From Chlorobium sp. (lineage in GTDB: Bacteria > Bacteroidota > Chlorobiia > Chlorobiales > Chlorobiaceae): a stretch of DNA of 38,891 bases. Position numbers and translations under genes: made by a program. Location: contig SZXW01000005.1 of assembly GCA_005862285.1 (NCBI GenBank), positions 1-38,891 on the forward strand, in the 5' to 3' direction. Within the stretch, counting starts at the first letter, position 1. Each line of letters starts with the position of its first letter. Shown here one piece after another: positions 3,674 to 38,133 of this stretch. A model generated the notes under the pieces. It saw nothing but the letters and a program-made list of their open reading frames with translations, was not told the DNA's origin and ran no database searches.

Positions 3674-3702
3674 CAATCGTTAAGAGTTCTTTAAAGTTAA
3701 TG

Positions 3703-3832
3703 GTCATCAAGAAAGGTGGAGGGAATAGACCCGTTGAAACCTTGACAACCGATTCCGTCCTTGACGGAACACGGTGCCGCATTCTACTTCCACAAGTCTG
3801 TACCAAGAAGGTCAGACAGGAAGAAAGATGAG
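3703..3832 (+). promoter_or_regulatory. SAM-I (S-box) riboswitch
   Basis: The conserved S-box parts occur in order: TCATCAAGAAAGGTGGAGGG at the 5' side, GACCCGTTGAAACC, GACAACC, then CGGTGCCGCATTCTAC and the closing GAAAGATGAG. P1 is formed by TCATC (3704-3708) with GATGA (3827-3831). It sits about 180 bases upstream of a methionine/cysteine transsulfuration gene, the expected kind of target. Binding of S-adenosylmethionine would switch the downstream expression platform and lower expression of the gene at 4015. Confidence 0.92.
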
Positions 3833-3963
3833 TGAAAAAGAGCTTTTCAGGAGCCCTCTTTTCAAAACAGGCTTGCACTTCTTGCTGCAGGCCGAAAAGA
3901 AACAGAGTATAGCTTGAACCTCTTCCATGCTCATCAGGGAAGGGGTTTTTCGTTTTCTCCCGT

Positions 3964-9040: not shown

Positions 9041-9493
9041 TCAGTGTTCAGGTGTTGTGCATGAATAGTTGTTTGTATTCGGACAGGTGTTCATATCGGT
9101 CATTCTCATGGATTCCACGACTTTTTCCGCTCCGGGGACAGCTCTGAGGCTTATGATATCTCGAAGCACGGTCGTATCGAATCCCTGGATATGGTGGTTC
9201 CCGATTTTCATGAGCGGTCTTTTTATCAGGATCGGGTCCTGGATCATCATGTCGAGGGCTTCCTCTATCGAATAATCCATAGGGTCAACCTCTCCTGATT
9301 TCACCGTCGGCGCCGAAGGGTTGAAACACTCGCTTGCCGGTTTGTTTCCGAGATACCTGGCCAGCTCCTCTCTCGTCCACGGGTGTGTCAGCAGGTTTAT
9401 CGTTTCAACGGTGTTTCCCGAAAGTTCAAGCATCGCTTTCTGACGGTTGTTGTTCCGGCATCCCGGTTTTTCAAAAAAAAGGATTGATGACAT
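9041..9493 (-). CDS. ArsC/Spx-fold nitrogenase-associated protein (NifO-like)
   Basis: 150 residues. The N-terminus ILFFEKPGCRNNNRQK places Cys12 at the position of the ArsC active site, but with the NNRQK run typical of nitrogenase-associated members rather than the arsenate reductase loop. A conserved ILIKRPLMKIG follows in the middle, as in ArsC-like proteins. Related proteins sit in nif clusters and have been called NifO. No nif structural gene is in this window, so the nitrogen-fixation link is from family knowledge. The C-terminal 25 residues have extra Cys residues (NTCPNTNNYSC). The gene leads a two-gene operon, with an AT-rich dyad 54-84 bases upstream of its start. Confidence 0.75.
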   Translation of the reverse strand: MSSILFFEKPGCRNNNRQKAMLELSGNTVETINLLTHPWTREELARYLGNKPASECFNPSAPTVKSGEVDPMDYSIEEALDMMIQDPILIKRPLMKIGNHHIQGFDTTVLRDIISLRAVPGAEKVVESMRMTDMNTCPNTNNYSCTTPEH

Positions 9494-9546
9494 TTAAGTA
9501 AAAAATATGAGTGCAATCAATCAATAAGCATTATATTTTTAGGTAG

Positions 9547-9577
9547 ATATTAATTTATATCCGATATAATTTAATAT
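9547..9577. promoter_or_regulatory. AT-rich dyad upstream of the NifO-like operon
   Basis: Two 14-base arms, ATATTAATTTATAT and ATATAATTTAATAT, flank CCG and are inverted copies with one mismatch. The dyad ends 54 bases before the start codon at 9493, a normal operator position. The binding protein is unknown. The wider intergenic region 9494-9917 is AT-rich and otherwise carries only the repeat at 9752-9870. Confidence 0.45.
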
Positions 9578-9751
9578 TAATTGAGCAAATGCAATAAATA
9601 TTTTTGTTAAATGTTTGTTACGTTTTTTTCTGTTGAAGCAAGGTATTTCAGGCAGGGTGTACTGCAGGAAGAAGGAAGTTAAGGGATGAGGCCGGCTCAA
9701 AAGCAAATCAAAGGTGTCATTTTAAGAGATAATCCGTCTGCTCCTCCGGTA

Positions 9752-9870
9752 ATTCTGAGTTTGACGAAGTCGGGCGAAGAATCCGGAAAATTCGAATAGG
9801 ATATTATCAATTAATTACATAATGGGACTATCCGATTACTGGATTCTTCACTTCGTTCAGAATGACAAAC
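9752..9870. repeat. Inverted pair of the 'TTCTGAACGAAGTGAAGAATCC' type repeat
   Basis: The left arm contains ATTCTGAG, CGAAGT and GGGCGAAGAATCC. The right arm (GGATTCTTCACTTCGTTCAG, then AATGAC) is the inverted copy. The same word family recurs several times at 18861-19580. Between the arms lies AT-rich DNA without a gene. This looks like a dispersed palindromic repeat rather than a gene remnant. Confidence 0.6.
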
Positions 9871-9917
9871 AAAACGAGTCATAGAGAACTCATGGCATAA
9901 ATCCATTTGAGACAGCT

Positions 9918-22619: not shown

Positions 22620-22745
22620 GCCGGAAAGTTTTTGTGAGGATATTTCGCAGGGAAATGACTGGACACGAAAAACCTTCCGAAAGCTTCACGGGGCGCTCTA
22701 TGCCCCGGAGCTCGCGGCACCGTGTCCATAGGTAATGGGGATGCC
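22620..22745 (-). ncRNA. Structured metK-ahcY leader, matching the SAM-Chlorobi RNA context
   Basis: On the minus strand GGACACG (22727-22721) pairs perfectly with CGTGTCC (22667-22661). Inside, CGGGGC and GCCCCG close a second stem around ATAGAGC. It lies between a Chlorobi-like promoter and the metK start. A candidate motif named SAM-Chlorobi, found only upstream of metK and ahcY operons in this phylum, is described in the literature, and the position and gene order match. I compared structure and context by eye, not to the published consensus. Boundaries are approximate. Confidence 0.7.
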
Positions 22746-22758
22746 AATAAAATCAAGT

Positions 22759-30093: not shown

Positions 30094-30696
30094 TTACAGC
30101 ATGCCCTTGGTCGAGGGGATGGCGGTGCCTGTGATAGCTACAGCATCTCTCATAGCATAAGCAAACGATTTGAAGAGTCCCTCGATCTTGTGGTGAGTGT
30201 TCTGTCCCTCGAGGATTTTCAGGTGTATGTTGGCTTTCATGCTTCCCGACAGCGATACGAAAAAATGTTCCACCATTTCAGTTGAAAAGCCCTGGACAAC
30301 GGAGCGGCGGAATTCTGCGCTGAACACACAGTAGCTTCTTCCTCCAAGATCGAGAGCGCATCGGGCGAGAGCCTCGTCCATCGGAATGATTGCCCATCCA
30401 TACCTGCGGATACCCTTCTTGTCGCCAAGGGCCTTCGTGATTGCATCGCCAAGCACGATCGCTATGTCTTCAACCGTGTGATGATCATCGACATCGAGGT
30501 CGCCCTTGCACTGCAGTGAAAGATCGAAACCTGAATGACGGCTGAAATTGACGAGCATATGGTCAAGAAACACCACACCTGAATTGACGGTGCTTTTACC
30601 TGAACCGTCAAGGGTTACCGTTACGGTGATATCGGTTTCTTTCGTGGTTCTCTGCACAGTTGCGGTACGTGCGGCACCGGTTACTTTTGATGGCAT
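30094..30696 (-). CDS. hisB: Imidazoleglycerol-phosphate dehydratase
   Basis: 200 residues from the ATG at 30696, matching the family's usual length of about 195-200. A frame reaching 30813 would add 39 unrelated residues. Metal-binding His motifs are present: [39 protein letters not shown] and [20 protein letters not shown]. It dehydrates IGP to imidazole-acetol phosphate in histidine synthesis. It lacks the phosphatase domain fused in enterobacteria. No other his gene is near. The ribosome site is weak. Confidence 0.95.
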
Positions 30697-31077
30697 CTGA
30701 TCGAGTCCGGATAAATTGATTGGCGGCCTTTTATTTGAATACATTGATAAAGCTGCCCTGCAACAAGTAGTTAAATGTAAAGAAAAATATGCAAATGAAC
30801 CTCCTACGGTCACAAGCGGTTGCTACTGCAGAGGAAGGCCCGGAGATCGTTTCACGCGAACATGGGCCGGTAGGGTCAGTTATCCTGAAAATCATGGTCT
30901 ATTTGCCAGGTTTTTTTGCTGATTTTTCGTCTGCCTCAAATTAAATAGTTACATTTAAACAAGTTCAGAGAAGTAAACGATTATCGTCCATCCGGATGCA
31001 AGATATTTCCGTGCTTGTCTCATGATTTTTCATGATGGCTTCATGATTTTCATAACATATTTCAGATAGGAACCGAT
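30697..31077. other. Divergent intergenic region with phased TCATGA sites
   Basis: Between hisB and the ABC operon. TCATGA occurs three times, at 31020, 31030 and 31041, one helical turn apart and ending 32 bases before the first ABC gene. Upstream there is mostly A/T-rich DNA, with a GC-rich stretch near 30820-30880 that shows no clear stem. No gene is supported here. Confidence 0.5.
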
Positions 31078-31878
31078 ATGAGGTGTTATGTCCTGAGGTC
31101 ATTGATGATTTTTTTCTTTGTTACAAGTGTTTGCATATTATCCGGCTGCAGCAAGCGGGAAAATATTACAAACGGTGACCAGCTTGACGGGAAGGAATTT
31201 GCTGTTCTTGCAGGAAGTGTCTGCGACAAACTTGCACTGCAGAAATTTCCCAATGCAAGGTTCCAGTATTTCAATAGTGTCGCTGATGAGGTGCTTGCCC
31301 TTCAGTCAGGTAAAGTCGATGCCATTTCCCTTGATGAACCTATTCTCAGAGTGATAGCGGCAAGAACTCCGGAGTTGAAACTGCTGCCGGAACTTATATC
31401 CAGCGACCGGTATGGATATGCCGTCAGTCTCGCAAATCAGGAGCTGAAAGAGGAGATTGACCTGACGGTTAAAGAACTGAAGGCCAATGGAGCGTATAAT
31501 GAAATGCTTCACCGTTGGTTTTCCCGGAGCGGCAGACAGTCTGTGATGCCTGATATTCAGTCTGACGGAAAAAACGGTGTTTTGCGGTTGGGAACTGCAC
31601 CTGTTACCGAGCCCTTCTCCTATGTTGACGGGTCCGGAAACATTGTCGGGTTTGATATTGAAATGGCAAAACATGTCGCTCAAAGACTTCACAGGAATCT
31701 TGAAGTTGTAAATATGGATTTTGGTGCGTTGATTCCGTCACTTGCAGCTGGAAAAGTCGATATGATCGGGGCCTGTATCATCATTACTGACGAACGGGCA
31801 AAAAAAGTGCTGTTTTCTGAACCGTATTACACCGGAGGAATCGGTGTCATGGTCAGAGATCAGAAAACGGTTCAGTAA
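31078..31878 (+). CDS. Lipoprotein with circularly permuted family-3 solute-binding domain (copy 1)
   Basis: 266 residues. Residues 1-24 are a lipoprotein signal with lipobox LSGC (Cys24). Residues about 38-148 match the C-terminal portion of a family-3 binding protein (GKEFAVLAGSVCDKLA, VDAISLDEPIL, then ELKANGAYNEMLHRWF, the normal end). After a linker, residues 167-262 match the normal N-terminal half (LRLGTAPVTEPFSYVDG, GFDIEMAK, IITDERAKKVLFSEPYY). The order is therefore reversed relative to GlnH or HisJ. D86 and R240 fall at the positions that contact the amino and carboxyl groups of amino-acid ligands. It leads an apparent operon with the ATPase that follows, 90 bases away. Ligand unknown. 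Confidence 0.85.
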   Translation: MRCYVLRSLMIFFFVTSVCILSGCSKRENITNGDQLDGKEFAVLAGSVCDKLALQKFPNARFQYFNSVADEVLALQSGKVDAISLDEPILRVIAARTPELKLLPELISSDRYGYAVSLANQELKEEIDLTVKELKANGAYNEMLHRWFSRSGRQSVMPDIQSDGKNGVLRLGTAPVTEPFSYVDGSGNIVGFDIEMAKHVAQRLHRNLEVVNMDFGALIPSLAAGKVDMIGACIIITDERAKKVLFSEPYYTGGIGVMVRDQKTVQ

Positions 31879-31968
31879 ATTGTGACTATGGACTTTTGTC
31901 TGTTCTGCGATATTCAGGGATCCTGACGGAAGTCAAACAATATTCACAGGAAACAAGCCTTTCAGCTG

Positions 31969-33060
31969 ATGATAAAGATTGAACATCTATCAAAAAATTT
32001 CGGTTCTCTCTCCGTGCTAAGGGATATTTCAGTCGAAATCAAGGAAGGTGAAGTCATTTCGATCATAGGTCCTTCCGGAGCCGGTAAAAGTACGTTTCTC
32101 CGATGTATCAACCTTCTTGACCGACCAAGCAGCGGTTCAATATTGATAAAAGGGATCAATATCCTCGATCCGAAAATCGATGTGGCCAAAGTCAGACAGA
32201 AAATGAACATGGTTTTCCAGGCGTTCAATCTGTTTGCCCATATTTCTGTACTTGAAAACCTTACCATCGCCCCGATGAAGCTTCTCGGCAAAAGCCGGGA
32301 ATCTGCAGAGAAGAAAGCCCATGAACTTCTCAATCTTGTAGGTCTAAGTGATAAAGCCGGCTCATACCCTGACGAGCTTTCGGGTGGCCAGAAACAGCGC
32401 GTCGCGATTGCTCGATGTCTTGCAATGGAACCGGAGGTGATTTTATTTGATGAGCCGACCTCAGCGCTCGATCCGACAATGATCAACGAGGTGCTGTCCG
32501 TTATCCGCCGGCTTGCCCGACAGGGACTGACTATGCTGATTGTTACTCATGAATTGGATTTCGCGAAGGATGTTTCCTCACGGGTATTCTATCTGGACGA
32601 GGGGGGCATTTACGAGGACGGCACCCCCCGGCAAATCTTCGAAAATCCGCAAAAAGAAAAGACAAAGGCATTTATCAAAAAACAGGAAAGTTTTTATCAG
32701 CATATCGTTTCATCGAATTACGACCTTTATGCACTCATTGCCGAAGTGGACTGTTTCTGCAGCAGACTGATGGTAAATGTGCAATCACGAAAGAACCTTA
32801 TGGTTCTGATCGAAGAGGTGCTGCAGCTTTTCAGAAAGTCAACCTTATCGTTTCCGCTTGACATGACGGTCAACTACGAAGAAAAAACCGAAATGCTCGA
32901 GCTTCTGTTTGAAGCGCCTCCGGGTTCCGTCAACCCCATGCTTACTGAGTCCGGAGATAACGGTTCAGCTCTTCCGGCTATCGAATCCCGCCTGCAGAGC
33001 CAGGAGTACCGGCAACTTGGCGGAAGGAACAGATTGAGCCTCTATCTTAAAAAACCTTAA
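31969..33060 (+). CDS. Amino-acid-type ABC ATPase with degenerate RsbW-like C-terminal domain
   Basis: 363 residues, about 120 longer than a GlnQ-type ATPase. Walker A GPSGAGKST (34-42), Q-loop VFQAFNLF, signature LSGGQKQR (137-144), Walker B VILFDEP (157-163) and H-loop THE (193-195) are all intact. Residues about 248-360 resemble, by eye, the RsbW-like kinase encoded two genes downstream: YDLYALIAEV against EKLYLL, VLIEEVLQLF against LAVEEAFVNI, and a closing GRNRLSLYL against GSNVLTLKF. The kinase's Asn (N box) and DxG residues are replaced, so this tail probably does not bind ATP. It could be the docking site for the STAS protein or the kinase, which is inference. Confidence 0.88.
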   Translation: MIKIEHLSKNFGSLSVLRDISVEIKEGEVISIIGPSGAGKSTFLRCINLLDRPSSGSILIKGINILDPKIDVAKVRQKMNMVFQAFNLFAHISVLENLTIAPMKLLGKSRESAEKKAHELLNLVGLSDKAGSYPDELSGGQKQRVAIARCLAMEPEVILFDEPTSALDPTMINEVLSVIRRLARQGLTMLIVTHELDFAKDVSSRVFYLDEGGIYEDGTPRQIFENPQKEKTKAFIKKQESFYQHIVSSNYDLYALIAEVDCFCSRLMVNVQSRKNLMVLIEEVLQLFRKSTLSFPLDMTVNYEEKTEMLELLFEAPPGSVNPMLTESGDNGSALPAIESRLQSQEYRQLGGRNRLSLYLKKP

Positions 33061-33076
33061 TAAAAAAGAACAGGGA

Positions 33077-33415
33077 ATGATCATACAGACTGTCAGAGAA
33101 TCCGCGGCTATGGTTGTCTCACTTTCAGGAAGACTGGATACCGTTACCGCACCCGACTACGAAAAAAAATTCGATGAACTGATCTCCAGGGAGGAAATCA
33201 ATTTCGTTGTCGATTTCGACAAGCTTGAATACATAAGCAGCGCCGGTCTAAGGGTGATTCTTGCCACGTCAAGGCGTATCAAGGGTAAAAACGGAAAAAT
33301 CCACCTTGCCAATATCAGCGGAAATGTAAAGGAAGTTTTCGAAATGTCAGGTTTTGCAGGTATTTTTCCGGTTTACGGCACAGTTGCCGAGGCACTGAAA
33401 ATGATAACAGGGTGA
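33077..33415 (+). CDS. STAS-domain protein (anti-anti-sigma / RsbV-like)
   Basis: 112 residues, one STAS domain: VVSLSGRLDTVTAPDYEK at the N-terminus, VVDFDKLEYISSAGLRVIL in the middle, and a C-terminal GTVAEALKMI. Ser55 in the ISSAGLR loop aligns with the serine phosphorylated in RsbV and SpoIIAA. A CAGGGA ribosome site precedes the ATG. Its stop is immediately followed by the ATG of the kinase-like gene, implying coupled synthesis of a STAS/kinase pair. Lying inside an ABC operon, it may control the transporter or a sigma factor; no sigma factor gene is in the operon. Confidence 0.88.
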   Translation: MIIQTVRESAAMVVSLSGRLDTVTAPDYEKKFDELISREEINFVVDFDKLEYISSAGLRVILATSRRIKGKNGKIHLANISGNVKEVFEMSGFAGIFPVYGTVAEALKMITG

Positions 33416-33844
33416 ATGACGTGTTCACTGTCTGAAATCACGATATCGGCAGATCTCGAAAAGCTTTATCTATTGAACGGATTTATCGTGCACTACGCTG
33501 AAGCTTCGGGTTGCGATATGACCGGAATAAACAGGGTTCTCCTTGCTGTCGAGGAAGCTTTTGTAAATATCTGCAGATACGCATACCCCGGGCACAAAGG
33601 CGAAGTCACTGTTTCGTGCTGTCTGGAAAACGGATCACTGGTAGTTGTATTTGCCGATAAAGGAATTCCGTTCAACATGCTCTCTGTTCCCGATCCCGAT
33701 ATATCAATTGGTATGGATGAACGATCTCCCGGAGGTCTCGGGATACATTTCATACGGAAGCTGACAAGCAGTGTCTTGTACAGCCGGGAAAACGGAAGCA
33801 ATGTTCTGACGCTGAAATTCAGCTGTATCAGGACAACAGAATGA
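33416..33844 (+). CDS. RsbW-like serine kinase / anti-sigma factor (HATPase_c_2)
   Basis: 142 residues. N box AVEEAFVNICRYAY has E46-E47 and N51, the G1 box is ADKGIPFN (D81, G83) and the G2 region SPGGLGIHFI, so all nucleotide-binding motifs of RsbW/SpoIIAB-type kinases are present. ENGSNVLTLKF closes the fold. The ATG directly follows the STAS stop codon, so translation is coupled. Family members phosphorylate a STAS partner and bind a sigma factor or other target. No PP2C phosphatase that would reverse this is found in the window. Confidence 0.88.
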   Translation: MTCSLSEITISADLEKLYLLNGFIVHYAEASGCDMTGINRVLLAVEEAFVNICRYAYPGHKGEVTVSCCLENGSLVVVFADKGIPFNMLSVPDPDISIGMDERSPGGLGIHFIRKLTSSVLYSRENGSNVLTLKFSCIRTTE

Positions 33845-33891
33845 ATCATACCTGATTAATTACAAACACAATCATGAAAAACGAGGAACCC

Positions 33892-34677
33892 ATGAAAAAC
33901 CTTTTTTCCCCACGGATCAGCCTTGTCTTTGTTCTTTCACTATTCATCATGCTCACCGGTTGTGAAAAAAGGGAGAAAATCACTCGTCTCAAGCAGCTTT
34001 CCGGAAAGGAGTTTGCCATACCGACAGGGACGGTTGCCGATAAACTGGTGCTTTCGAAAATACCTGATGCAAAATTCAAATATTTCAACAGCGTCATGGA
34101 TGCAGCACTTGCCGTTAAAACGGGCAAAGCCGATGCGGCAGCATATGATGAACCTATCCTGAAAAACATAGCGGCCAAAAACAGCGGTATTTCTGTTCTG
34201 TCGGAAATGATCACCAACGACAATTACGGTTTTGCTGTCCGCCTCGATGACAAAAAACTGAAAGATGCCATCGATTCCACCGTCAAGGAGCTGAAACAGA
34301 GCGGGACCTATGACGACATGATGCACCGGTGGTTTCCTAAAACAGGTAATCCTGCCCCGATGCCGGTTATAACCTCGGATGGCACCAAAGGCGTCATCAG
34401 GTTCGGCACCGCTTCGGTAACCGAGCCGTTTTCCTTTGTCGACGGTTCCGGAAAAGTGGTGGGATTTGATATCGAACTTGCTTCATACGTTGCGAAAAAA
34501 ATGGGCAGGAAGCTTGAAATCGTCAATATGGATTTCGGCGGTATGATCCCTGCACTGATTACCGGCAAAGTCGATATGATCGGAGCCTGCATAACCATCA
34601 CCGGCGAACGCTCCAAACAGGTACTGTTTTCCGATCCTTATTATATCGGGGGAATAGCGGCGATGGTCAGGGACTGA
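33892..34677 (+). CDS. Lipoprotein with circularly permuted family-3 solute-binding domain (copy 2)
   Basis: 261 residues from the ATG at 33892, preferred over 33874 because GAGGA lies just upstream and a better signal peptide results. The lipobox is LTGC (Cys24). The layout is the same as copy 1: the lobe-2 segment comes first (SGKEFAIPTGTVADKL, ADAAAYDEPIL, ending LKQSGTYDDMMHRWF), then the normal N-terminal half (IRFGTASVTEPFSFVDG, GFDIELASYVAKKMG, ITGERSKQVLFSDPYY). D86 is kept. The two copies are clearly paralogous, separated by the ATPase and switch genes. It is likely to deliver ligand to, or signal to, the fused permeases downstream. Confidence 0.85.
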   Translation: MKNLFSPRISLVFVLSLFIMLTGCEKREKITRLKQLSGKEFAIPTGTVADKLVLSKIPDAKFKYFNSVMDAALAVKTGKADAAAYDEPILKNIAAKNSGISVLSEMITNDNYGFAVRLDDKKLKDAIDSTVKELKQSGTYDDMMHRWFPKTGNPAPMPVITSDGTKGVIRFGTASVTEPFSFVDGSGKVVGFDIELASYVAKKMGRKLEIVNMDFGGMIPALITGKVDMIGACITITGERSKQVLFSDPYYIGGIAAMVRD

Positions 34678-34697
34678 AGTGTTCTATCGTTTAAAAA

Positions 34698-36230
34698 ATG
34701 AAGCAGATAACGCGATCTATATTCACAGTTTTCCTGTCGCTTTTCGTTCTTGCTTCCTGTAGCGGGAGGCATGATGTTCAAAGCAGGCAGGGTAAACCCC
34801 TGTATGCTTCGGTAGAAGATGTGGCAGCCGGACGTATCGGTGTGCTGCTCGGTTCGACACACGACCAGTATGCAAGGAAAAACTTCACCAGGGCCACAAT
34901 ACTGGAGTATAAATCGCTGCCTGACCTTATAATGGCAGTGAAAACCGGAAAGGCCGATGCCGGTATCTACAATTCCGTTCAACTTCCGGAACTGCTTCAT
35001 GAGCAGAGTGAGCTCGGCATTTTGGGGAAACCGCTTTTTTCCTCCAGTACTGCCATGGGTTTCAAAAAGGGTGACAAGGAACTCCGTATGTCGTTCAACA
35101 AGTTCCTTGCAGAGATTCGCCAGAATGGTGTGTATGACGATATGGTCCGCAGGTGGATGAAAAACCGGGATACCCATATGCCAGATATAAGGAGCAATGA
35201 GAAGGCGAAAAGGACGCTTGTTGTCGGAAATGTTTTTGATATGGGTTTGCCGTTTACAGCTGTAAGCGACAACAGGCTCGTTGGTTTCAATGTCGAACTG
35301 ATTGACAGGTTCGGGGTGTATCTTGGAAAGAATGTCGTTTATCGGAATCTTGAGTTCGGCAACCTTATCGCATCGCTTTCAACCGGTAAAATCGATATGA
35401 TCGGATCGGTGCTGGCAATCACGCCGGAGCGGGCAAAAAGCATCGATTTTTCCGATCCCTATTTTGATGCGGATGCATGCATGTTCGCACTCAGGAAAAA
35501 TATCGCGGTACCGGGGGTTGATTCCGGAAAAACGGATAACAGTGATGTCCCGACATCGTTTTTCTCCGGCATTGTCGAGAGCTTCAGGAACAATATCATC
35601 CGGGAGAACCGCTGGAAGCTCATAGTGGAGGGGCTCCAGGTCACGATAGTGATCTCCTTTTTGTCGGCTCTCCTTGGAACATTTTTAGGCGGTTTTATCT
35701 GTCTGCTGAGAATGTCGAAAAACATGGTGCTCCAGTCGGCAGGGAGAACATACATAACTATCATGCGGGGCATACCCGTTCTGGTTGTACTGATGCTGAT
35801 TTTCTATGTCGTGTTCGCTTCGGTTAACATAGATCCGGTTTTTGTGTCGGTCATAGCATTCGGGATGAATTTTGCAGCATATGCGGCGGAGATATATCGT
35901 GCAGGCATAGAGAGTATCGACCGGGGGCAGACGGAAGCAGGTGTCGCAATGGGGTTTACAAAAGTGCAGATCTTCCTTGATATTATCCTGCCTCAGACGG
36001 TCATGCGGATCCTGCCGGTTTACAAGGGGGAGTTTATCACCCTGGTAAAGATGACCTCTATTGTCGGCTACATCGCTGTTCAGGACCTTACAAAGGCAAG
36101 CGACATCATCCGGAGCCGGACTTTCGACGCTTTTTTCCCGATTATCATGGTAGCCGTTCTTTATTTTCTTATTTCCTGGACTCTAATGCTTTTGATCGAC
36201 CGTCTTGAAGTTCGGTCATTCCAGAGCTGA
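34698..36230 (+). CDS. Permuted solute-binding domain fused to ABC permease (copy 1)
   Basis: 510 residues. Lipobox LASC (Cys21). The permuted binding domain spans about 35-265 (AAGRIGVLLGSTHDQYA, ADAGIYNSVQL, VYDDMVRRWM, then LVVGNVFDMGLPF, GFNVEL and ITPERAKSIDFSDPYF). A permease domain covers about 300-500 with the EAA loop YRAGIESIDRGQTEAGVAMG and RGIPVLVVLMLIFYVVFAS. The permease is of the HisM/GlnP amino-acid type. Position 92 is Asn where the free binding proteins have Asp86, and GFN replaces GFD, so ligand binding may be changed or lost. It is 20 bases after copy 2 of the binding protein. Two such fusions could form the permease dimer. Confidence 0.88.
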   Translation: MKQITRSIFTVFLSLFVLASCSGRHDVQSRQGKPLYASVEDVAAGRIGVLLGSTHDQYARKNFTRATILEYKSLPDLIMAVKTGKADAGIYNSVQLPELLHEQSELGILGKPLFSSSTAMGFKKGDKELRMSFNKFLAEIRQNGVYDDMVRRWMKNRDTHMPDIRSNEKAKRTLVVGNVFDMGLPFTAVSDNRLVGFNVELIDRFGVYLGKNVVYRNLEFGNLIASLSTGKIDMIGSVLAITPERAKSIDFSDPYFDADACMFALRKNIAVPGVDSGKTDNSDVPTSFFSGIVESFRNNIIRENRWKLIVEGLQVTIVISFLSALLGTFLGGFICLLRMSKNMVLQSAGRTYITIMRGIPVLVVLMLIFYVVFASVNIDPVFVSVIAFGMNFAAYAAEIYRAGIESIDRGQTEAGVAMGFTKVQIFLDIILPQTVMRILPVYKGEFITLVKMTSIVGYIAVQDLTKASDIIRSRTFDAFFPIIMVAVLYFLISWTLMLLIDRLEVRSFQS

Positions 36231-36317
36231 GCCGAATGAAATTTACTGTCGTCTCGTGATGATTTACTCGGAAAGAAGGAAGCGCTGTGAATTAGCACAT
36301 TGTTCAACATGTTATCA

Positions 36318-37877
36318 ATGAAACGATTTTTTCGTGCCTTGGCTGCTGCCTGCATGTTTGCGTTCATTCTCGCTTCCTGCGTCAGCCAGAATGGAAAGGG
36401 AGGTTCAGCAGAGAATACAGGGTATGCATCTGCCGATGACCTGAAAAACAGGCGCATAGCTGTGATGCTTGGCTCGGTCCACGACCGGTACGCGAAAAAA
36501 AACTATCCGGACGCCACGATCCTGCAATACAAATCTCCTACCGACCTGGTGGTTGCCGTAAAAACAGGGAAGGCCGATGCGGCCATCTATACCTATGACG
36601 AACTTGCCGAGGTTCTGAAACAGCATACCGATCTCGGACTTCTGGGCAAACCGCTTTTTGCGACGCCTGTGGCCATGGGATTTCACAAGGGAGATGATGA
36701 GCTGCGGGTTTCATTCAACCGTTTTCTGAAGCAAATCCGGGATAACGATGTGTATGACGATATGATGCAGCGGTGGATAAAAAGCGGCAGCACGGTTATG
36801 CCGGATATTCCTTCGGCCGGTAAATCCACGGGGACGCTTGTTGTCGGCATGGTAAACGATAACGGACTTCCGTTCACGGCGGTCAAGGACAATAAACTTG
36901 TCGGTTTCAATATCGAGCTTCTCGACAGGTTCGCGGCTTCAATCGGCAAGAACGTGACCTACCAGAACCTTGAGTTCGGCAGTCTTATAGCGGCGCTCGA
37001 AAGCAGAAAAATCGATATGATCGGTACGGTCATGTCGGTAACTGACGAGAGGAAGAAAAACGTCGATTTTTCCGAGCCCTATTATGCACAGGATGTCTAT
37101 GCGTTTACGCTCAAATCGAATATCGTATCCCCCGGGAATAGCACGGCCCATGAGGCCCGGTTCCGGATGCCTCCCTTTCTTGACGGCATCATCAGCAGTT
37201 TCCAGAGCAACATCGTCCAGGAGAACCGCTGGCGCCTGATCATCGACGGTCTCTGGGTAACGGTGGTTATCTCGTTCCTCTCGACCATGTGGGGAACGGT
37301 GCTCGGCGGATTCATCTGTTTCATGCGCATGTCGCACGTAAAGCCGCTTGAAATGGCGGCGAAGTTCTACATTTCGATCATGCGCGGCACGCCGGTGCTC
37401 GTGGTTCTCATGCTGATCTTCTATGTGGTATTCGCATCGGTGAACATCGATCCGGTCATTGTGGCTGTGATCGCCTTCGGACTGAATTTCGGTGCCTATG
37501 CATCGGAAATCTACCGGGCGGGGATCGAGAGCATCGACCGGGGACAGACCGAAGCCGGCATCGCGATGGGGTTCACCAAAGTGCAGACTTTCCGGTACAT
37601 CATTCTGCCGCAGACGATCATAAGGATCCTGCCTGTTTACAAGGGAGAGTTCATATCGCTGGTGAAAATGACCTCGATCGTTGGTTACATAGCCGTGCAG
37701 GACCTCACAAAGGCGAGCGACATCATCCGGAGCCGGACCTTCGACGCTTTTTTCCCGATCATCATGGTTGCTGTGCTCTACTATCTGATTTCATGGTCGC
37801 TGCTGCTCTTCATCGGACACATGGAAAAGACGATCGATCCGAGGCTCAAGCGCAGAGCAGCGACGCAACAGGCATGA
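36318..37877 (+). CDS. Permuted solute-binding domain fused to ABC permease (copy 2)
   Basis: 519 residues from the ATG at 36318; an ATG at 36309 and a TTG at 36300 are alternatives, and none has a close ribosome site. The signal ends in lipobox LASC (Cys21). The order is the same as in copy 1: permuted binding domain (NRRIAVMLGSVHDRYAKK, ADAAIYTYDEL, VYDDMMQRWI, LVVGMVNDNGLPF, GFNIELLDRF, VTDERKKNVDFSEPYY), then the permease with YRAGIESIDRGQTEAGIAMG. Position 92 is Thr in place of the ligand-contact Asp. The permease halves of the two fusions are nearly the same sequence, pointing to a tandem duplication. Last gene of the operon; 88 bases separate it from copy 1. Confidence 0.87.
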   Translation: MKRFFRALAAACMFAFILASCVSQNGKGGSAENTGYASADDLKNRRIAVMLGSVHDRYAKKNYPDATILQYKSPTDLVVAVKTGKADAAIYTYDELAEVLKQHTDLGLLGKPLFATPVAMGFHKGDDELRVSFNRFLKQIRDNDVYDDMMQRWIKSGSTVMPDIPSAGKSTGTLVVGMVNDNGLPFTAVKDNKLVGFNIELLDRFAASIGKNVTYQNLEFGSLIAALESRKIDMIGTVMSVTDERKKNVDFSEPYYAQDVYAFTLKSNIVSPGNSTAHEARFRMPPFLDGIISSFQSNIVQENRWRLIIDGLWVTVVISFLSTMWGTVLGGFICFMRMSHVKPLEMAAKFYISIMRGTPVLVVLMLIFYVVFASVNIDPVIVAVIAFGLNFGAYASEIYRAGIESIDRGQTEAGIAMGFTKVQTFRYIILPQTIIRILPVYKGEFISLVKMTSIVGYIAVQDLTKASDIIRSRTFDAFFPIIMVAVLYYLISWSLLLFIGHMEKTIDPRLKRRAATQQA

Positions 37878-37887
37878 CCCTGGTGGC

Positions 37888-38133
37888 TCAGTGCGACATG
37901 AATTTGTTGATCACATAAAGGATGAAGCTGAGCAGGATGGAAAGAAGGATGGATGTGCCGAGGGGGAAATAGAAATGGAAATTTTCCTTTTCTACCTTGA
38001 TGTCGAGGGGAAGATTGCCGATCCAGTGCAGCCAGTTCGACGCTCCGGCTTTTCCTGCGGCCATGAGAAGCAGTCCTAAAAGCACGGCGGCAAGGCCTCC
38101 GATGACAAGTATTTTTCCGGCTTCAGAAAACAC
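37888..38133 (-). CDS. DUF2905 small membrane protein
   Basis: 81 residues with two transmembrane helices (about 5-27 and 55-76) joined by WIGNLPLDIKVEKENFHFYF, the DUF2905 signature (GxLPxDIxxxxxNxxxYFP). Function unknown. It converges on the ABC operon with ten bases between the stops and is divergent from secG. Confidence 0.9.
   Translation of the reverse strand: MFSEAGKILVIGGLAAVLLGLLLMAAGKAGASNWLHWIGNLPLDIKVEKENFHFYFPLGTSILLSILLSFILYVINKFMSH

Follow-up and report, generated by a model that had tools for sequence, protein, structure and literature searches.

An ATP-binding cassette (ABC) importer gene cluster in a Chlorobium sp. contig of 38,891 nt (GenBank accession SZXW01000005.1, the whole of which is referred to here as the window) includes genes for a stand-alone STAS protein and an RsbW-type serine kinase. 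Pairs of this kind control sigma factors elsewhere, and the question is what such a pair acts on when it is located amongst transport genes. The locus is read here as an amino-acid ABC importer run by an Rsb-type partner switch with the transporter itself as the output, which we judge to have somewhat more in its favour than against it. The fuller proposition, that a complete phospho-partner switch has been re-aimed from transcription to a pump via a degenerate kinase copy carried on the ABC ATPase, is in our estimate evenly balanced. The initial annotation, made from the sequence alone, had guessed that the pair gates the transporter and not a sigma factor, and this guess gained support from the RsbW-like tail of the ATPase, the lack of a SigB/F/G-type sigma factor, and the recurrence of STAS, kinase and SpoIIE genes beside the ATPase gene. 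The RsbW-like nature of the tail and the phosphatase/sensor arm had been missed.

The ATPase tail and the proposed partner switch

The C-terminal part of the 363-residue ATPase (residues ~241-363, about 120 aa) is not accounted for by any ABC family. A profile of the tails of 14 relatives aligned with the operon kinases in hhalign over 114 columns (E 9.6e-9, probability 95.7%), and 10 of the 14 tails matched HATPase_c_2 individually (best 8.4e-6); the window's own tail gave no match. The tail profile did not align with a STAS profile. Against PDB sequences it found no relative, the best hit being ribosomal L23 (E 0.5), and a fold search was therefore required. The AlphaFold2 model of the window tail, built on a 65-row alignment, has a predicted local distance difference test score (pLDDT) of 88.2 and a predicted template modelling score (pTM) of 0.82. 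The best Foldseek matches to it are partner-switch kinases (E 6.4e-5), as are all of the best eleven PDB rows found by VIA (Z 11.3-13.4), among them UsfX, RsbW, the Rv1364c RsbW domain, SiaB and SpoIIAB. A Leptospira response regulator comes next (Z 10.6), with histidine kinases at only ~7. In the N-box of the tail the Glu residues are retained and the Asn is lost, and the G1 and GGLG boxes are absent. As the kinase fold is present with these elements missing, the tail is, on profile and model comparison, a degenerate RsbW/SpoIIAB-like domain, an RsbW-like pseudokinase in which ATP binding has presumably been lost. Its best conserved stretch is helix 1 (AEIxxFCEK), not the nucleotide pocket.

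The components of the switch itself retain their motifs. The window STAS protein scores above the cutoff of TIGR00377, and the YISSxGLR motif is invariant in the STAS proteins of relatives (31/31). N-box Glu/Asn and the glycine boxes are kept in the separate kinase, and the PP2C motifs in all 21 of the SpoIIE phosphatases. In Methylobacter, Nitrosomonas and Nitrotoga (L077, L078, L090, L100 and L103) the G1 box of the kinase reads DDAP, not DxGxP.

At one related locus (L046), ATPase and STAS genes are in a single frame, and reading through the TAG codon gives a tail-linker-STAS chain. This chain was modelled with AlphaFold2 from an alignment of 55 rows, 5 of them joined and the others tail-only or STAS-only (pLDDT 90.6, pTM 0.82, linker disordered). 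A pTM of ~0.5 would be expected for independently placed halves, by our own estimate from the pTM formula, and the value obtained therefore indicates a confident relative placement of tail and STAS. The model lends moderate support to docking of STAS on the tail.

In the proposed mechanism, unphosphorylated STAS would dock on the pseudokinase tail of the ATPase, and the RsbW-type kinase would phosphorylate Ser55 of STAS and so take it off the tail. Dephosphorylation of STAS upon a periplasmic signal would fall to a dCache-HAMP membrane sensor with a SpoIIE/PP2C domain; relatives, and a second locus of the same genome, encode this sensor and an NMT1-type binding protein upstream of the importer. 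STAS would shuttle from the active kinase to the degenerate copy carried by the pump and back, rather than releasing a sigma factor. The contact between STAS and tail, and an effect on ATPase activity of either sign, are what we infer.

The second locus, at C1:835200, encodes a tailed ATPase 61% identical to that of the window and has the order NMT1 - dCache-SpoIIE - (CN)2-permease - ATPase/tail - STAS. An acpS-like gene comes next, and there is no adjacent kinase gene. The window locus has a kinase without a phosphatase and the second locus a phosphatase without an adjacent kinase, and the two may jointly form one complete switch with shared components. Genome G036 has NMT1 and SpoIIE genes ahead of the importer at the matching hisB...DUF2905 site (L027), and the window locus has therefore probably lost both.

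Sigma factors were searched for with PF04539 and PF04542 (Sigma70_r3 and r2), which are not specific for the SigB/F/G type. Each of eight Chlorobiaceae genomes has one Sigma70_r3 protein, of RpoD size, and the other sigma factors of the window's own genome number three, all of the size of extracytoplasmic function (ECF) factors. A SigB/F/G-type factor was discarded as the output on this basis, and a SigB/SigF-type output is unlikely in the Chlorobiaceae genomes examined. An ECF or other output for the switch is possible.

Distribution of the module and alternative explanations

A scan of genome contigs with the tail profile gave 112 relatives, of which 80 were kept. Tailed ATPases occur in at least 6 phyla, namely Chlorobiota, Ignavibacteriota, Pseudomonadota (Methylobacter, Methylovulum, Nitrosomonas communis and Ca. 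Nitrotoga), Thermodesulfobacteriota (Geobacter and others), Gemmatimonadota and Bacillota (Pelotomaculum). Several are from contigs of metagenome-assembled genomes (MAGs), where binning may be wrong; the complete set is also present in the isolates Nitrosomonas communis and Methylobacter marinus (L077, L078). Closely similar tailed ATPases in MAGs labelled Sphingomonadales and Candidatus Kuenenia (L049, L056) are likely due to mis-binning or recent transfer. No tail relative was found on viral contigs and one was found on plasmids, in Selenomonas ruminantium pSRC1 (L122), in a minimal form with no adjacent STAS or kinase gene. There the solute-binding protein (SBP), permease and tailed ATPase genes, annotated as ordinary, adjoin genes for a sugar-binding protein and a methyl-accepting chemotaxis protein.

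Of the loci, 51 are well covered, with 6 kb or more of sequence upstream and 2.5 kb or more downstream. Genes for permuted SBP and permease are present in all but one of these (50/51), and those for STAS (17/51), kinase (13/51), dCache-HAMP-SpoIIE (16/51) and NMT1-type binding protein (15/51) in fewer. SpoIIE is beside STAS in 15 of its 16 occurrences. The sole STAS-less case is L074, where the STAS reading frame (9280-9900) is broken relative to the near-identical second locus of the window's own genome, L026 (8200-8700), in which it is intact; the sister genome that carries L074 still has STAS and kinase genes at its other locus, L042. The commonest complete order is NMT1 - dCache-SpoIIE - (permuted SBP)n-permease - ATPase/tail - STAS - kinase. 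Where the module is present STAS mostly follows the ATPase immediately, and in Methylobacter, Nitrosomonas and Nitrotoga the kinase gene is convergent and directly after STAS. In one Geobacteraceae MAG, a gene for a BMP-family-like lipoprotein (L096:4300-5390) is located between ATPase and STAS. On the ATPase tree the presence of STAS needs ~12 changes, at least 8 of them on well supported branches, and the module therefore comes and goes; it is facultative. Among ABC ATPases of the phylum that lack the tail, none of 12 loci carries STAS, kinase or SpoIIE within ~1.5 kb, although these controls are mostly of other ABC types, as the sampled Chlorobiota are nearly without tail-less GlnQ-type ATPases. 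The background of STAS matches is usually a handful per Chlorobiaceae genome of 2-3 Mb.

Several observations count against a switch that acts on the importer. Conservation of gene order, which the initial annotation had offered as a check, gave a mixed answer: the tail occurs without STAS at 34 of the 51 well-covered loci, yet STAS recurs across phyla, usually right after the ATPase. The Chlorobiaceae genomes with such STAS-less loci that were searched hold only distant homologues of STAS and kinase. The window locus lacks a phosphatase gene; a PP2C (SpoIIE/RsbU) phosphatase is encoded at the genome's second locus, and complete relatives have one as well. The window tail is the most degenerate among those of STAS-bearing loci, and together with that of its sister locus, L042, it forms the two exceptions to the G2-helix motif DELGLxIIxNLTE, which is found at 26 of 28 STAS-bearing loci and about half of the STAS-less ones. 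A STAS-dependent constraint on the G2 helix was rejected, as the difference is not significant given the phylogeny, with only 3 independent pairs. The docking model is of tethered proteins from another species, has mostly unpaired rows and was judged by pTM without a negative control.

Since the tail persists without STAS, it must have a function of its own, perhaps in dimerisation. The tail could serve mainly in dimerisation or stability of the ATPase, as in the case of the MlaF extension, with STAS an occasional stabilising add-on and no phospho-switching. Helix 1 is indeed retained in the tails of STAS-less loci, and stability of MlaF requires MlaB (PMC7367683), but intact kinase, SpoIIE and phosphoacceptor motifs that co-occur with STAS argue for phosphorylation, and we regard a purely structural role as unlikely, though the least unlikely of the three alternatives. 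The direction of control could also be reversed, with the importer as the sensor. The tail would then pair with the active kinase or titrate STAS, and transport or ligand occupancy would set STAS phosphorylation for an output elsewhere, possibly one of the three ECF-size sigma factors. The fold shared by tail and kinase, the dimeric nature of RsbW-type proteins and the conservation of helix 1 are in keeping with this. However, complete loci already have a dedicated input in the NMT1 protein and dCache-SpoIIE, the importer is the only conserved candidate output gene at the locus, and one locus of the window's own genome has STAS and tail with no kinase, so that a sensory importer appears rather improbable. 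Least probable of all is a hitchhiker model, in which STAS and kinase form an ordinary partner switch that has an unlinked target and does not interact with the tail. Such an association would agree with the tail being kept without STAS in most relatives and with the many changes of the STAS label on the ATPase tree. It does not account for the tail having the RsbW-type fold, the known STAS-binding fold, or for the repeated association, across several phyla, in which phosphatase and STAS go together, and no SigB/F-type sigma factor is found in the eight Chlorobiaceae genomes.

If the switch does act on the importer, nutrient uptake in several phyla would be controlled directly and rapidly, without a transcriptional step, and this would be a concrete case of partner switching on an enzyme instead of on transcription. 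With kinase, sensor phosphatase, STAS and an ATPase bearing a domain of the STAS-binding fold in one operon, complete loci are a testable natural system.

The window locus and its permuted importer modules

Seven genes on the forward strand (31078-37877) are bracketed by hisB (30094-30813) and a DUF2905 gene (37888-38133), both on the reverse strand. The order and strand given in the initial annotation were confirmed, as were the short gaps (90, 16, 0, 29, 20 and 69 nt), the STAS stop codon (33413-33415) abutting the kinase ATG (33416), and, from the gene list, the lack of a sigma factor gene in the operon. The spacing is compatible with a single operon. Promoter- and terminator-like sites at the locus were no more numerous in the scan than in shuffled sequences. 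Pfam E-values are 6.6e-37 for ABC_tran, 1.9e-20 for STAS and 2.3e-24 for HATPase_c_2, and BPD_transp_1 is found in both fusions. The genome is Chlorobiaceae-like by its SAM-Chlorobi riboswitch and its nearest relatives, which are Chlorobiaceae MAGs. In comparison with L042, which has the identical seven-gene order, the ratio of nonsynonymous to synonymous substitution rates is below 1 for all seven genes (range 0.07-0.15, kinase 0.43), indicating that the genes are maintained under purifying selection, the kinase least so. As the layout is found again in other genomes and phyla, the arrangement is not due to chance. Elsewhere in the window are two SAM-related riboswitch classes, S-box and SAM-Chlorobi, at 3701-3834 (+) and 22659-22746 (-).

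Coordinates of the genes and domains of the importer locus in the window
Feature	Position	Strand	Remarks
Permuted SBP_bac_3 lipoprotein 1	31078..31878	+	Lobe 2 before lobe 1; ligand Arg and Asp kept
ABC ATPase nucleotide-binding domain, GlnQ/polar-amino-acid type, aa 1-240	31969..32688	+	Pfam/NCBIfam
RsbW/SpoIIAB-like pseudokinase domain (predicted), ATPase C-terminus, aa 241-363	32689..33060	+	N-box Asn, G1/G2 glycines lost
Stand-alone STAS, RsbV/SpoIIAA type	33077..33415	+	Predicted phosphoacceptor Ser55 within YISSAGLR
RsbW-type serine kinase (HATPase_c_2)	33416..33844	+	N-box, G1, G2 motifs intact
Permuted SBP_bac_3 lipoprotein 2	33874..34677	+	Arg and Asp kept
Permuted SBP-permease fusion (BPD_transp_1)	34698..36230	+	Arg kept; ligand Asp replaced by Asn
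Permuted SBP-permease fusion (BPD_transp_1)	36300..37877	+	Arg kept; ligand Asp replaced by Thr

All parts of a polar amino acid importer are present. TIGR01726, the criterion for HEQRo-type permeases, is matched above its cutoff, and the ATPase scores 302 bits with the GlnQ model, under the equivalog cutoff of 379. All four SBP modules of the window are circularly permuted, the lobe that is normally second standing first. Pfam SBP_bac_3 matches fall in two stretches in reversed order, and phmmer aligns query residues 171-266 with 8-103 of 6svf and residues 40-155 with 114-228. Tail-linked relatives also have the reversed order, and the canonical N-to-C SBP order is absent from them. The tandem substrate-binding domains (SBDs) of GlnP (6h30) align in a single stretch, query 31-261 with chain 97-324, which comprises SBD1 lobe 2 and SBD2 lobe 1, and this suggests that the permutation arose by tandem duplication with both ends trimmed. 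In L054, L081, L090, L100 and L102, three or four permuted modules are concatenated onto one permease, in proteins of up to 1254 aa.

Across relatives the lipoproteins keep the amino-acid-binding Arg of GlnBP in 39 of 39 cases and the Asp in 35 of 39, and are therefore likely to be amino-acid receptors. Permease-fused modules keep the Arg and about half have lost the Asp, and some of them may be docking or auxiliary modules. In the two window fusions (34698-36230 and 36300-37877), amino-acid binding of the usual kind may be lacking. We infer that the substrate of the importer is an amino acid.

Comparison with known systems

The initial annotation knew of no described system of this composition, and none was found in the open-access literature searched, which lacks most subscription papers. 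The individual parts are known, and it is the combination, with a pseudokinase-tailed ATPase, that is apparently new. ABC transporters go unmentioned in a review of STAS-only proteins (PMC8256260), and the authors of the MlaFEDB work found no further STAS-ABC pair in the PDB and called control of MlaB an open question (PMC7367683). In MlaFEDB, too, the gene for a stand-alone STAS protein accompanies those of an ABC transporter, and the ATPase has a C-terminal extension. However, Mla is an MCE lipid transporter and not an amino-acid importer with BPD_transp_1 permeases, and the MlaF extension, ~25 residues, is not kinase-like, whereas the window ATPase appears to carry a whole RsbW-like domain. 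MlaB binds the nucleotide-binding domain of MlaF, while the window STAS is predicted to bind the tail; it scores 15 bits with mlaB_1 (cutoff 90) and is not of the MlaB family. Phosphosite Thr52 of MlaB is at the MlaF interface, and a phosphomimetic there weakens binding (PMC7367683). Mla has no known cognate kinase or phosphatase; the window has a kinase, and relatives also a phosphatase, which, if the proposed mechanism is correct, would supply the two enzymes missing for MlaB-type regulation.

The RsbU-RsbV-RsbW and SpoIIE-SpoIIAA-SpoIIAB switches likewise consist of a STAS protein with a phosphoacceptor Ser, an HATPase_c_2 kinase and a SpoIIE-type PP2C phosphatase with a sensor, and share the STAS stop that abuts the kinase start. 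The window locus differs from them in lacking a sigma factor gene in its operon, its genome being without any of SigB/F type, and in having an additional putative partner, the pseudokinase fused to the ABC ATPase. GlnPQ-type importers (PMC8025302) have at least one SBP module fused to the permease and a GlnQ-type ATPase, as here, but in all tail-linked proteins the modules are permuted (lobe 2 - lobe 1), and there are extra permuted lipoproteins and the ATPase tail. Regulation through a C-terminal domain would be shared with MalK/MetN-type ABC ATPases. The regulatory domains of MalK and MetN are of OB-type or ACT-type fold, and the window tail is instead predicted to have the fold of an anti-sigma kinase, which, if the mechanism holds, would be an anti-sigma kinase turned pseudokinase docking site.

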